This document shows positions 21,789 to 25,860 of a stretch of 37,290 bases of DNA, piece by piece. Source of the stretch: a bacterium (GTDB taxonomy: Bacteria > Patescibacteriota > Minisyncoccia > UBA6257 > UBA9933). Every line of letters begins with the position of its first letter. Position 1 is the stretch's first letter. Under the pieces are notes generated by a model, which searched no databases, was not told the origin of the DNA, and saw nothing but the letters and a program-made list of their open reading frames with translations. The translations under genes were made by a program, and so were the position numbers. The stretch lies in assembly GCA_021786355.1 (NCBI GenBank), contig JAJYNK010000017.1, forward strand, positions 1 through 37,290, written 5' to 3'.

Positions 21789-22102
21789 CCCTGTAGTGAA
21801 ATTTCAATTTAAATTTTTACTTTTAGAATAGAAATATTCTTTTAGACGACGTTTTAATAAGCGGTTGCCTTGTGTTGTTTTAAAATATTTTTCTCTGCGT
21901 TTAGCGTCATTTTCATTTAAACACGCCTCGTAGTATATACATTTCCACGACTTGTATGGTTTAGTGGAAAAATTTAATCCCTGATTATGTTCTTTTAACC
22001 TTTTAATCAAATCTTTTGTATATCCAACATATACATTACTATTCTTCAAGCCTTCAATTACGTACACATAGAACATAATCAGATTGAAATTCTACTACGG
22101 GG
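21789..22102. mobile_element. GIY-YIG cassette 2 bounded by a 20-bp inverted repeat
   Basis: Left end ccctgtagtgaaatttcaat (21789-21808) and right end attgaaattctactacgggg (22083-22102) are reverse complements at 17 of 20 positions. They enclose only the 90-aa GIY-YIG gene, whose TGA stop lies inside the left repeat and whose ATG is six bases from the right. The cassette lies in the gyrB-secE gap and ends one base before the secE ATG. Same architecture as cassette 1, different repeat sequence. Confidence 0.6.
21804..22076 (-). CDS. Single-domain GIY-YIG endonuclease (URI/UPF0213-like), second copy
   Basis: A 90-aa nuclease domain. FYVYVIEGLKNSNVYVGYT holds the YVY and YVG strands, LIKRLKEHNQG the catalytic Arg, CIYYEACLNENDAKRREKYFK the conserved Tyr/Glu/Arg/Glu helix, and GNRLLKRRLKEY the basic end. 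It is clearly homologous to the gene at 16031-16288 but well diverged, so the two are not a recent duplication. It interrupts what would otherwise be the gyrB to secE junction and is enclosed in its own inverted repeat. Confidence 0.9.
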   Translation of the reverse strand: MFYVYVIEGLKNSNVYVGYTKDLIKRLKEHNQGLNFSTKPYKSWKCIYYEACLNENDAKRREKYFKTTQGNRLLKRRLKEYFYSKSKNLN

Positions 22103-22132: not shown

Positions 22133-24094
22133 TTATATGTCAAGGTTTTTAACGGTACTTGCCATCCTTTGAATGAATTGTTTTCTGGGCTCGACAGAAT
22201 CACTCATTAAAACGGAAAATAATCTATCCGCTTCTTCCGCGTCATCAATGCTTATAACTTTCAATGTCCTTCTTTCGGGATCCATGGTTGTTTCCCAAAG
22301 TTGTTCAGGATTCATTTCTCCCAACCCTTTATATCTTTGTATGTTAATATTGACTTGCTCTTTTTTACTAAGCGATGTCATTTCTTTAACAATTTTATCT
22401 TTCTGCGCGTCATTGTAGGCGTAACGAACTTCTTTTCCCAGTTGCATCCTATACAAAGGCGGTTGCGCAATAAAAAGATGTCCGTTCTCGGCAACCGGCA
22501 AAAAATGCCTGTAAAACAGCGTCAACAAAAGAGTTCTAATATGATTACCGTCGCTATCCGCATCGGTCATTATGACTATTTTATGATAGCGCAATCGGCT
22601 TAAATCAAAGTTATCGGCGATAGCCGTGCCCAAAGCGATTACCAAAGATTTTATCTCGTTGTTAACCAGCATCTTGTCGATTCTTGATTTTTCAACGTTT
22701 AAAATTTTTCCCCTTAACGGCAAAATTGCTTGAAATCTTCTGTTTCTTGCTTGCTTAGCGCTTCCGCCCGCGCTGTCTCCCTCAACAATAAACAATTCCG
22801 ATTCTGTGGCATCGCGCGAAGAACAGTCGGCAAGCTTTCCGGGCAAACTCATTCCCTCTAACGCGCCTTTTCGAAGAACCGTGTCTTTGGCGGCTTTGGC
22901 AGCTTTTCTTGCTTTTTGAGCCAGCAAACATTTTTCGACAATCACTCTGGCGTCGCTGGAATATTTTTCCAAATATTCTTTTAAAGCTTCGCTGATAACC
23001 GATTCTACGGCTGTTCTCGCTTCGGGATTTCCAAGCCGCGCCTTTGTCTGGCCTTCAAATTGCGGCTCTTTTAATTTTATGGAAACTATTGCCGTAAGCC
23101 CCTCTCTTACATCGTCGCCGGTTAAATTTTCTTCCGAATCTTTCAGATAATTATTGCCTCTTGAGTAATCATTTAAAACGCGCGTTAGGGCGGATCTAAA
23201 TCCAGTCAAGTGCATTCCGCCGTCAGGCGTATAAATATTGTTTGCAAAACTAAGTTCTCTTACGTCGGATTCTTCATTATAAACAAAAGCTGTTTCCACT
23301 TCGATATTGTCGCTGTCTTTCTTGATATAAAATATTTTCTGCTGATTTGTTTCTTTGCCTCTATTCAAATAATCGATAAAATCCAGAAGGCCGCCGTCAA
23401 ACTGAAAAGAATAATAAAAAGGAGTTTCTTCCCGCTCATCGATTATTTCTATTTTCACGCCTTTGGTCAAAAACGCCTGCTGACGCAAATGATCAACCAT
23501 CGTTTTGCGGTTAAAAGAAATTTTTTGAAAAATTTCCGCGTCTGCTTCAAAAATTATTTTTGTTCCGTTCGAAACGCATTTGCTTCCTTTCTTAACCGCG
23601 AATTTCGGCTTACCTCTTTCGTATTCCTGATAATAAAGATTGCCATTGCGGCAAACTTCCGCTCTCATCCATATCGAAAGAGCGTTAACCACCGAAACGC
23701 CGACCCCGTGAAGTCCGCCGGAAACTTTATAAGATTCGCCCCCGAATTTTCCGCCGGCGTGCAAAGTGCACATTACGGTTTCTAAGGCTGATTTTTTTGT
23801 TTGCGGGTGGATATCAACGGGAATTCCGCGGCCGTCGTCGGTAACCGCAACTTTGTCGTTTTTCAAAAGCTCCACTCTGACTGTTTTAGCATGGCCAGCC
23901 ATAGCCTCGTCAATAGAATTATCCACCACCTCCCAGATCAAATGGTGAAGCCCGTCAACTCCGGTTGAACCGATATACATTCCCGGCCTTTTTCTGACCG
24001 GCTCAAGACCTTCCAAAACATAAATATCTTTAGCTTCGTAAGAAGCGTTATTGCCGTTGTTTTGAATATTTTTTTTGATTTCTTTTTTTGTCAT
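22133..24094 (-). CDS. gyrB: DNA gyrase subunit B
   Basis: A 653-aa ATPase subunit of a type IIA topoisomerase that introduces negative supercoils with GyrA. The Bergerat ATP fold has EVVDNSIDEAMAG, DDGRGIPVDIH and GGLHGVGVSVVNALS in residues about 50-135. The transducer domain carries the QTKARLGNPEAR lysine loop. The Toprim domain has LFIVEGDSAGGSAKQARNR near 435 and IMTDADSDGNHIRTLLL near 510. The tail QRYKGLGEMNPEQLWETTMDP is conserved. Length fits the short GyrB form. ParE is a less likely name. gyrA is not nearby. The N-terminal Lys/Asn stretch is poorly conserved. Confidence 0.95.
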   Translation of the reverse strand: MTKKEIKKNIQNNGNNASYEAKDIYVLEGLEPVRKRPGMYIGSTGVDGLHHLIWEVVDNSIDEAMAGHAKTVRVELLKNDKVAVTDDGRGIPVDIHPQTKKSALETVMCTLHAGGKFGGESYKVSGGLHGVGVSVVNALSIWMRAEVCRNGNLYYQEYERGKPKFAVKKGSKCVSNGTKIIFEADAEIFQKISFNRKTMVDHLRQQAFLTKGVKIEIIDEREETPFYYSFQFDGGLLDFIDYLNRGKETNQQKIFYIKKDSDNIEVETAFVYNEESDVRELSFANNIYTPDGGMHLTGFRSALTRVLNDYSRGNNYLKDSEENLTGDDVREGLTAIVSIKLKEPQFEGQTKARLGNPEARTAVESVISEALKEYLEKYSSDARVIVEKCLLAQKARKAAKAAKDTVLRKGALEGMSLPGKLADCSSRDATESELFIVEGDSAGGSAKQARNRRFQAILPLRGKILNVEKSRIDKMLVNNEIKSLVIALGTAIADNFDLSRLRYHKIVIMTDADSDGNHIRTLLLTLFYRHFLPVAENGHLFIAQPPLYRMQLGKEVRYAYNDAQKDKIVKEMTSLSKKEQVNINIQRYKGLGEMNPEQLWETTMDPERRTLKVISIDDAEEADRLFSVLMSDSVEPRKQFIQRMASTVKNLDI

Positions 24095-24176
24095 TTTAAT
24101 TGTTTTCTAACAAAAACAAGGCCCGAAATACCCTTATTTGCTAAGGCCTCACATAGTTAATAATAGCAGGTTTTTC

Positions 24177-24340
24177 TTATTTAAACAACGGCTTACCCTT
24201 GATAAATCGCTCCAGTTTTTTAGCATTGCCATGCTTCAGCAGGCCCAAATAAGAATTTGATGTTTTAGAAATTGGACTCTTTTTAATCCTTTAAATATTC
24301 ACGAAGAGTTGCGAAATGAAGTTATCCATATTAAGTTAGC
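24177..24340 (-). pseudogene. Remnant of a reverse transcriptase (DGR-like), internally deleted
   Basis: Two short minus-strand peptides lie head to tail. The first, MDNFISQLFVNI then a stop at 24291-24293, resembles the RT block consensus GN(L)TSQLFANIYL that precedes the catalytic YADD. The second, 24177-24290, reads SNSYLGLLKHGNAKKLERF and ends KGKPLFK, resembling the C-terminus of DGR and related RTs (NSYLGxxxHxN...L). The catalytic YxDD segment between them and everything upstream are missing. It sits just downstream of the DGR-type variable protein, where an RT gene is expected. Recognised by eye, so moderate confidence. Confidence 0.5.
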
Positions 24341-24355
24341 GCATTTAAGAAAATT

Positions 24356-24389
24356 AAAAAAAAGCCCTTGGCGAAACTCCGCCAAGGGC
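24356..24389 (-). terminator. Intrinsic terminator (or DGR-type cruciform) after the variable protein
   Basis: Perfect 10-bp stem GCCCTTGGCG/CGCCAAGGGC (24364-24373 and 24380-24389) with a 6-base loop and eight T on the minus strand. A strong terminator. In known DGRs a GC-rich hairpin just 3' of the variable repeat also promotes retrohoming, so it could be a relic of that. Confidence 0.85.
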
Positions 24390-24446
24390 CGGTCTAAGGG
24401 ACCAAGGATTCAAAAAACCTAAATATCCAAGATCCCAAGTTCAATA

Positions 24447-25058
24447 CTACTTGCGGACCGCGGCGAAACGGCAGTAGACGCTCCAGCCAGACCCGAGCCA
24501 GAACAGTCGCAGGTAGCGCTCCGAGCCGCTCCAGAAGAGGTACGGACAGAAGCGGCTGCCGTACGAGTCCTGCCACACGGAAGCCAGACCGATAATCGGA
24601 AACTCTCGCTGGAGTTCCGGGTGGTTGGCGCCAAAGGCAAGAAGCTCGTGAAGCTCAGCCGGGCGGAGACCGCGCTTGTCCAACTCGGCCAACGCCTCTT
24701 TGGTGGAGACGACCCGGTTGAAATGCACCAACTCGATCTCAACCTCCGCCTTGCCCGACCGGTTGGTCGGGAAGTTCTTCTGAGTGATGTCATTATTCAC
24801 CCAGTCGTACTTTCCGGCTGCGATCGCGTCGGTGATCGGCTGGTCGTAGTTGACGATGAGGCGGTAGATGTTGGGGTTGACAGAAACAACACGGCTGCGC
24901 CCGTCAAGAACATCCAGTACTTGGCCAAGAACCGTTCCTTCTGAAAGCTTTTTGATCATAGCGTTGGTCCACTGCGACCCGTCGCTCCCGCGAGTCCGAC
25001 GAAACGCCGCTTTCAATTCTCCCGCCTGATCAACATCGAGCATCAAGTTCTCGCTCAT
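24447..25058 (-). CDS. DGR-type variable protein with C-type-lectin-like C-terminus
   Basis: A 203-aa protein from the ATG at 25058 (MSENLMLDVDQ), which has an AAAGGAGAG Shine-Dalgarno; the ATG seven codons upstream precedes that site and is rejected. The N-terminal 150 residues are of unknown function. The last 50 residues, from GLASVWQDSYGS to CRFAAVRK, match the ends of variable proteins of CPR diversity-generating retroelements (from memory; fold CLec). The last 110 bases are crowded with NNC codons (TAC, GGC, AGC, TTC, CTC, TGC), as expected when AAC codons of a template are adenine-mutagenised. The gene is far more GC-rich than its neighbours. It has its own promoter, leader hairpin and terminator. 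Inferred role: ligand-binding display protein. Confidence 0.7.
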   Translation of the reverse strand: MSENLMLDVDQAGELKAAFRRTRGSDGSQWTNAMIKKLSEGTVLGQVLDVLDGRSRVVSVNPNIYRLIVNYDQPITDAIAAGKYDWVNNDITQKNFPTNRSGKAEVEIELVHFNRVVSTKEALAELDKRGLRPAELHELLAFGANHPELQREFPIIGLASVWQDSYGSRFCPYLFWSGSERYLRLFWLGSGWSVYCRFAAVRK

Positions 25059-25117
25059 CGTTGTCTCTCCTTTTTGCAACAGTGTTCTTGCGAACGCGTT
25101 GCGGTTTAAGGATTCAC

Positions 25118-25168
25118 TCCATTACAGCTTTTAAAGGACGCTCGTTGCCCGCTAAAAGCTGTAATGGA
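25118..25168 (-). promoter_or_regulatory. Leader hairpin of the variable protein gene
   Basis: Perfect 16-bp inverted repeat (25118-25133 and 25153-25168, arm tccattacagctttta) with a 19-base loop in the leader between the promoter and the Shine-Dalgarno. Could stabilise the mRNA or be an operator. Confidence 0.6.
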
Positions 25169-25212
25169 ATTTCCCGCAATTATTTGTTTTTAAAGAACTA
25201 TTTTATGACTTA

Positions 25213-25240
25213 ATTATAACATACCGTCATTTTTTGTCAA
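25213..25240 (-). promoter_or_regulatory. Sigma70-type promoter of the variable protein gene
   Basis: TTGACA (25235-25240) and TATAAT (25213-25218) on the minus strand with a 16-bp spacer. The -35 box overlaps the last codons of dedA. Predicted leader is about 145 nt. Confidence 0.75.
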
Positions 25241-25860
25241 CTCTTTATCTCTCGCTTTAAATGTCTATTTAACCACCAAACCAAAGCGCTGATTATCAGA
25301 ATCAAAATTAAATAGTCAAACTTTCGAAAATACATCATCGCCACTCCCCAATTCTCGCCCAAACTATACCCCATGTAGGCCAAAAAACCCGACCAAATAA
25401 GCGACCCCGAAAAAGTCGCGATTAAAAACCTTTTTAAATTCATTTTTGCCAACCCGGCCGGAAGCGAAATAAAAGTGCTGACTATCGGAACCATTCTCCC
25501 CAAAAAAACCGAAAAATCTCCCCGCTTCTCAAACCATTTTTTAGCCAAATCCAAATTAATATCGCTGATCAAAAATTTCAAGATTGTTGATTTATTTCTG
25601 GCCGGTCCGGATAAAAATCCAGCCAATTTATAGGACAAAAAAGCTCCAACTAAGTTACCGAGCGCGCCCGTTAAAATAACGGTCCAAAAATTAAACCTTC
25701 CGTTAAAAACCAAAAAACCGGAAAATGTCATTGTCGCTTCCGACGGAAGCGGAATATTGAAACTCTGAAGCGCCATAAGCAAAAAAACACCGACATAACC
25801 GGTGGCGCTGATGACGCTTAAAATAAAACCCGATATTAAAGCAATAACATCAACGATCAT
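25237..25860 (-). CDS. DedA family membrane protein
   Basis: A 207-aa polytopic membrane protein of the DedA/SNARE-associated group, some members of which act in undecaprenyl-phosphate or phospholipid recycling. Family features are FNIPLPSEATMTFSGFL with the conserved Glu near residue 41, GALGNLVGAFLSYKLAG, and FLGRMVPIVSTFISLPAGLAKM with the conserved Arg near 121. Five or so hydrophobic segments are present. The ATG overlaps the end of galT by 11 bases, so the two are co-translated. The promoter of the variable protein gene lies over its 3' end. Confidence 0.92.
   Translation of the reverse strand: MIVDVIALISGFILSVISATGYVGVFLLMALQSFNIPLPSEATMTFSGFLVFNGRFNFWTVILTGALGNLVGAFLSYKLAGFLSGPARNKSTILKFLISDINLDLAKKWFEKRGDFSVFLGRMVPIVSTFISLPAGLAKMNLKRFLIATFSGSLIWSGFLAYMGYSLGENWGVAMMYFRKFDYLILILIISALVWWLNRHLKREIKS

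Follow-up and report, generated by a model that had tools for sequence, protein, structure and literature searches.

What happened at a locus where an intact gene resembling the target of a diversity-generating retroelement (DGR) stands beside what looks like the debris of its mutagenesis machinery? The window, i.e., the whole stretch of 37,290 nucleotides that was analysed, is contig C6 of a Patescibacteria assembly of 607,536 bases in 47 contigs (93% complete). It contains a 203-aa ORF at 24447-25058 on the minus strand, located between a DedA gene and gyrB. Among the nearest named relatives by gyrB is Ca. Wolfebacteria (69-70% identical), which places the host in the Patescibacteria (CPR). 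A first-pass annotation had read the span from 24177, the stop codon of a broken reverse transcriptase (RT), to 25058, the start codon of the variable protein (VP), as a dead DGR with an intact former target. This interpretation is supported by homology to intact cassettes of VP, template repeat (TR) and RT, by a test at adenine sites, and by the lack of an RT and a TR in the assembly. The locus is very probably the wreck of a cellular DGR of the Patescibacteria type beside its former target.

The VP gene and the signals around it are as follows:
24447 to 25058, minus strand: former DGR variable protein, intact ORF of 203 aa, assigned by its homologues in genomes of the class.
24450 to 24581, minus strand: variable region (VR), the last 44 codons (SVWQ...FAAVRK), assigned by identity to the TR consensus of relatives.
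24363 to 24390, minus strand: intrinsic terminator of the VP gene, a 12-pair stem with a T run, in a similar place in intact relatives.
25118 to 25168, no strand assigned: perfect 16-bp inverted repeat (19-nt loop) within what is presumably the 5' UTR of VP, read from the sequence.
25213 to 25240, minus strand: promoter-like TTGACA-16-TATAAT, sigma-70-like (12/12), a consensus match only.

Homologues of the VP are encoded in 51 of the 285 genomes of the class (E<=0.01), while a search of its own genome found one place only. Its C-terminal half is homologous to the VPs of intact DGRs from the same class of Patescibacteria (CPR), and it is 52-57% identical over ~140-155 aa to the VPs of loci L031, L034 and L038, which have a TR in cis. 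The tail, SVWQDSYGSRF...CRFAAVRK, had been called CLec-like in the first-pass annotation. In the structural model (mean pLDDT 85, residues 61-203 mostly above 95), nearly all neighbours listed are C-type lectin domains, but Z is at most 7.8, below 8 and thus in the range that the aligner calls common, and Foldseek returned no neighbour at E<=0.001. The predicted C-type lectin fold of the C-terminal half is therefore suggestive rather than proven. Pfam and NCBIfam gave no family for the VP, PHROGs gave none useful (best E 0.099), and a single-VP search of genome-contig and viral-contig collections found no relatives. Pfam applied to 25 VP homologues named eight families with one member each (best E 0.011), and a PDB profile-sequence search gave one match (E 0.69); both were discarded as noise.

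The intact relatives were surveyed with an ungapped scan, in which TR adenines are scored separately, at the 31 VP loci found at E<=1e-20. In several of the genomes with a VP homologue, the last ~45 residues of the VP match a second, short stretch some 340 nt downstream, the TR. It is present in cis in 10 of the 31 loci (L031, L034, L037, L038, L042, L044, L046, L049, L116 and L156), at a distance of 326-370 nt from the VP stop, and has mismatches almost only at TR adenines. Eight of these ten loci encode a full RT that begins 0.65-0.92 kb after the VP stop; in L038 and L049, the contig breaks off ahead of the RT or within it. One of the 31 has its TR in trans, on another contig of genome G156 beside an RT (L175), with 103 matches, 27 mismatches at A and 3 others. 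A conserved leader was observed between VP and TR (L031:4682-4830, and likewise in L034, L037, L038, L042, L046 and L116). It lies about 110-270 nt past the VP stop and has a GGATAGTAG-like start, CGGTTACGGC...CGAATTC and a later TACTTGG; it probably corresponds to the 5' portion of the template RNA. Two congeneric genomes (G300:C3:110666-111704 and G301:C5:52231-53308) have an RT that is divided in two at a common point, close to profile position 184; this could be a broken RT that both share, or a split RT.

An accessory protein gene, for instance Avd or HRDC, can be part of a DGR. An HRDC accessory gene is described in a DGR context (PMC4891356), and the DGRs of Patescibacteria form a clade of their own, DGR clade 2 (PMC8144416). 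Relatives of the window share with these DGRs a VP with a CLec-like C-terminal VR, a TR downstream, and an RT with SQ and YADD or YCDD, all on one strand. In contrast, the window retains just the VP and 44 RT codons, arranged as follows:
24315 to 24362, minus strand: stretch holding the first deletion site, from comparison with L034.
24294 to 24314, minus strand: RT remnant 1, SQLFVNI, with the SQ dipeptide of DGR RT motif 4, from tblastn and shuffles.
24291 to 24293, minus strand: junction of an internal in-frame deletion, reading TAA, between the remnants, from the RT alignment.
24177 to 24290, minus strand: RT remnant 2, the C-terminal 37 residues RIKKSPISKTSNSYLGLLKHGNAKKLERFIKGKPLFK and the stop, from tblastn, profile and shuffles.

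A tblastn search of 24000-25250 with the DGR RTs of six relatives matched RIKKSPISKTSNSYLGLLKHGNAKKLERFIKGKPLF at E=2e-8, with SQLFVNI in the same frame; SQ is the characteristic dipeptide of DGR RT motif 4 (PMC3521204). The best real score was 40.0 bits, whereas the top-scoring of 300 dinucleotide-style shuffles of this interval reached 23.1. Thus, the two shreds that had been picked out by eye as RT (SQLFVNI and a piece with NSYLGLLKHGN) are indeed RT sequence in one frame, and no YxDD is left in either. The C-terminal piece reads RIKKSP...KPLF. The pieces have the same strand, order and frame as in the relatives and start about 132 nt after the VP stop. About 91 RT codons, including the YxDD core, are gone between them. 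A further ~1.3 kb, comprising the TR, the leader and RT codons 1-198, is gone between the VP terminator and SQ when compared with L034. Weak similarity continues the match of remnant 1 as far as 24335, and 24335-24315 may be decayed RT (LNMDNFI vs LPLGNLT), or else the TR-RNA leader may begin there (GGATA...). NCBIfam, applied to the RTs of two intact relatives, gave only RT families, below their cut-offs.

Since the window has lost its own TR, the VR was compared with a consensus of five relatives' TRs of equal tail length. Identity is 69 of 77 at non-adenine sites and 9 of 29 at adenine sites (Fisher p=6.7e-9), a difference by which the VR, judged from sequence, bears the mark of adenine mutagenesis. 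Differences at TR adenines of the relatives' consensus, together with homology to the targets of intact DGRs, are what characterises a DGR target. The first-pass annotation had relied on a richness in NNC codons as the trace of mutated AAC codons. In the 11 columns with AAY in at least four of the five TRs, the window has NNC at 8, NNY at 9 and AAY at none, and intact VRs have a similar 7-8 NNC. However, codons elsewhere in the window tail often end in a pyrimidine as well (19/33), so the adenine-site test is the stronger evidence. One AAY column is CGA in the window, a codon that AAY cannot become through adenine mutagenesis alone, and this counts against the reading as a DGR wreck.

An RVT_1 search of the genome found nothing. 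A profile of five RTs matched the RT remnant (E=1.1e-4) and no other RT at E<=10 in the 93%-complete assembly, while the same profile has a match in 135 of the 285 class genomes at E<=1e-4. No TR was found in the window by the ungapped scan, and in the assembly a 68-nt pattern of 'VR base or A' with up to 3 mismatches matches the VR alone; the template repeat is missing, as had been noted earlier. Thus, the locus has neither an RT with SQ in motif 4 and YxDD nor a TR nearly identical to the VR, as a functional DGR would. A target that is kept while RT and TR are absent from an assembly of this completeness corresponds to the orphaned targets of Treponema denticola.

Isolates of T. denticola carry leftover DGR targets without RT or TR and, as in the window, targets with adenine-biased VRs outlast the loss of both (PMC4891356). 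There, the loss was inferred between strains of one species, whereas the window still contains its broken RT, and VPs have been orphaned repeatedly across a CPR class. The DiGReF collection contains DGRs with truncated RTs, and in these cases, too, an inactivated RT adjoins a recognisable VR (PMC3521204). However, the VR/TR pairs described there are intact and the RT is hit by nonsense, frameshift or insertion, while the window has lost its TR and most of its RT through deletion. Orphaned targets as well as broken RTs are therefore already known from these accounts, and the window adds another case. Within the openly licensed literature, we found no paper describing Patescibacteria with broken DGR cassettes or with orphaned VPs, and none on the breadth of orphaning in this class, although a prior report is possible.

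The ancestral order would have been VP, TR and RT, all on the minus strand. By analogy with known DGRs, the RT would have copied the TR with errors at adenines in an active phase, and the cDNA would then have replaced the last ~130 bases of VP. A later deletion took the TR and the N-terminal ~198 RT codons, and another about 91 RT codons with the YxDD core, while the VP frame and its expression signals survived. The VP would no longer be diversifiable and should be inherited as one C-type-lectin-like binder; a fixed binder is most likely what it is today. The first-pass annotation had called it a frozen but still expressed receptor. That it is frozen follows from an assembly (93% complete) in which both RT and TR are missing. 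Its expression is only suggested, by the open frame and by signals that are all present as described (TTGACA-16-TATAAT at 12/12, an AGGAGA Shine-Dalgarno upstream of the VP ATG, and the terminator at 24390-24363). The VP may bind a ligand and might be a receptor; targets of CPR clade-2 DGRs usually have no recognisable membrane domains (PMC8144416). CTTGG/CTTTGG-like motifs are repeated between the VP stop and the terminator (24391-24446), and this is seen at most VP loci, including orphaned ones. The 16-bp inverted repeat has no Rfam family above gathering score; atpB, NsiR1 and Spot_42, which appear at a low threshold, all score below gathering and are chance matches.

Orphaned VPs are not confined to the window. 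No TR was detected for 20 of the 31 close VP loci, a number that is an upper bound, as the TR was sought in cis and in those RT loci of the same genome that had been fetched. High trans scores in L043 and L155 are paralogous VP matches rather than TRs, because they have many non-adenine mismatches. Ten of the 20 loci lie in genomes without an intact RT. In eight of these (G119, G283, G018, G008, G287, G001, G224 and G096), no RT match was found at E<=1, and two (G000 and G292) contain RT scraps only; G224, G283 and G018 are listed as 99-100% complete in 3-10 contigs. G292 is from the same family as the window; its VP is 59% identical to the window's and is followed, about 100 nt past the stop, by a different RT scrap, YTNKFDQLVNHKLKIRYYIRYCDD. 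A tree was built from 30 VP cores (VR excluded), and in it VPs with and without TR are intermixed, with 8 changes, at least 5 of them forced by well-supported branches, although 18 of the 27 inner branches are weak and the bootstrap has not settled. Given this intermixing, the orphan state has probably arisen several times, through loss or through duplication or transfer of the target alone. A tentative explanation, still short of probable, is that the mutagenesis machinery is repeatedly lost in this CPR class while selection keeps the last-selected binder. The DGR would then be a discovery phase, with its product afterwards fixed and maintained as an ordinary gene.

It is possible, on the other hand, that the VP is simply on its way out, i.e., that the loss is recent, the protein is not selected, and the open frame reflects a time-lag. 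The RT pieces are little decayed: in a by-eye reading of the alignment, the pieces cover 15 positions at which five intact RTs do not vary, and they still agree at 14 of them. Thus, the RT loss may be recent, and an open VP frame need not mean selection. In addition, genome G239 has a VP fragment with a stop, and the congeneric genome G091 (gyrB 95% identical) is entirely without VP. Yet the VP frame is clean and has its promoter, ribosome binding site and terminator, and other lineages keep open VP frames where neither RT nor TR was found. VPs without a TR also have branches like those of sisters with one (L035 0.43 vs L034 0.43). Synonymous sites are expected to be saturated, since the nearest VP is only 58-59% identical.

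The history of the site bears on where the cassette came from. In G091, gyrB and DedA are about 127 bp apart, and the flanking genes are syntenic with those of the window and 89-97% identical. The DedA gene of the window differs:
25237 to 25860, minus strand: DedA/VTT-domain gene, an allele foreign to the congener, from DedA identities.
It is 49% identical to the DedA of G091, while the DedAs of G091, G239 and G277 are 64-70% identical among themselves, so it is a foreign allele. Judging from these identities, the cassette was probably imported together with DedA; loss of the VP cassette in G091 is a possible alternative. The same figures would fit a segment that was acquired already dead with the foreign DedA and never worked in this lineage. 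We consider this rather unlikely: no donor with the same broken cassette was found, and import of a live cassette fits equally well. A small GIY-YIG nuclease-like gene (21804-22076) was also observed, between nusG and gyrB.

Diversification of the VP in trans, by an intact RT and TR located in sequence that the assembly lacks, is improbable. The assembly is 93% complete in 47 contigs, and TRs in trans do occur among relatives (G156/L175); but the assembly holds no RT at E<=10 except the remnant, no RVT_1 and no TR, and the cis RT is itself destroyed. Least credible of all is an assembly artefact in which chimeric joins created the deletions, for although VR/TR near-repeats can disturb assembly in a 47-contig genome, one junction falls between terminator and RT and the other within the RT, both outside any VR/TR repeat, the flanks are syntenic with G091, and G292 has an analogous but different wreck.

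Surveys of DGRs based on RT miss genes of this kind, whose RT is gone. Should 20 of the 31 close VP loci truly be without TR, the imprint of DGRs on CPR genomes would be larger than RT counts suggest. Fixed former targets would be a natural set of binders for ligand tests, and they offer a way to ask if hypervariation is useful only for a time.

The window VP is also a mosaic protein: its first ~58 residues (24885-25058) match another VP type (L101, L113, L108 and L110), and the rest matches the SVWQ...FAAVRK type. VP genes are GC-richer than their flanks and RT in most of the 31 loci, including all five for which RT composition was computed. In the window, the VP core has a GC3 of 0.71, against a GC of 0.40 in the flanks.
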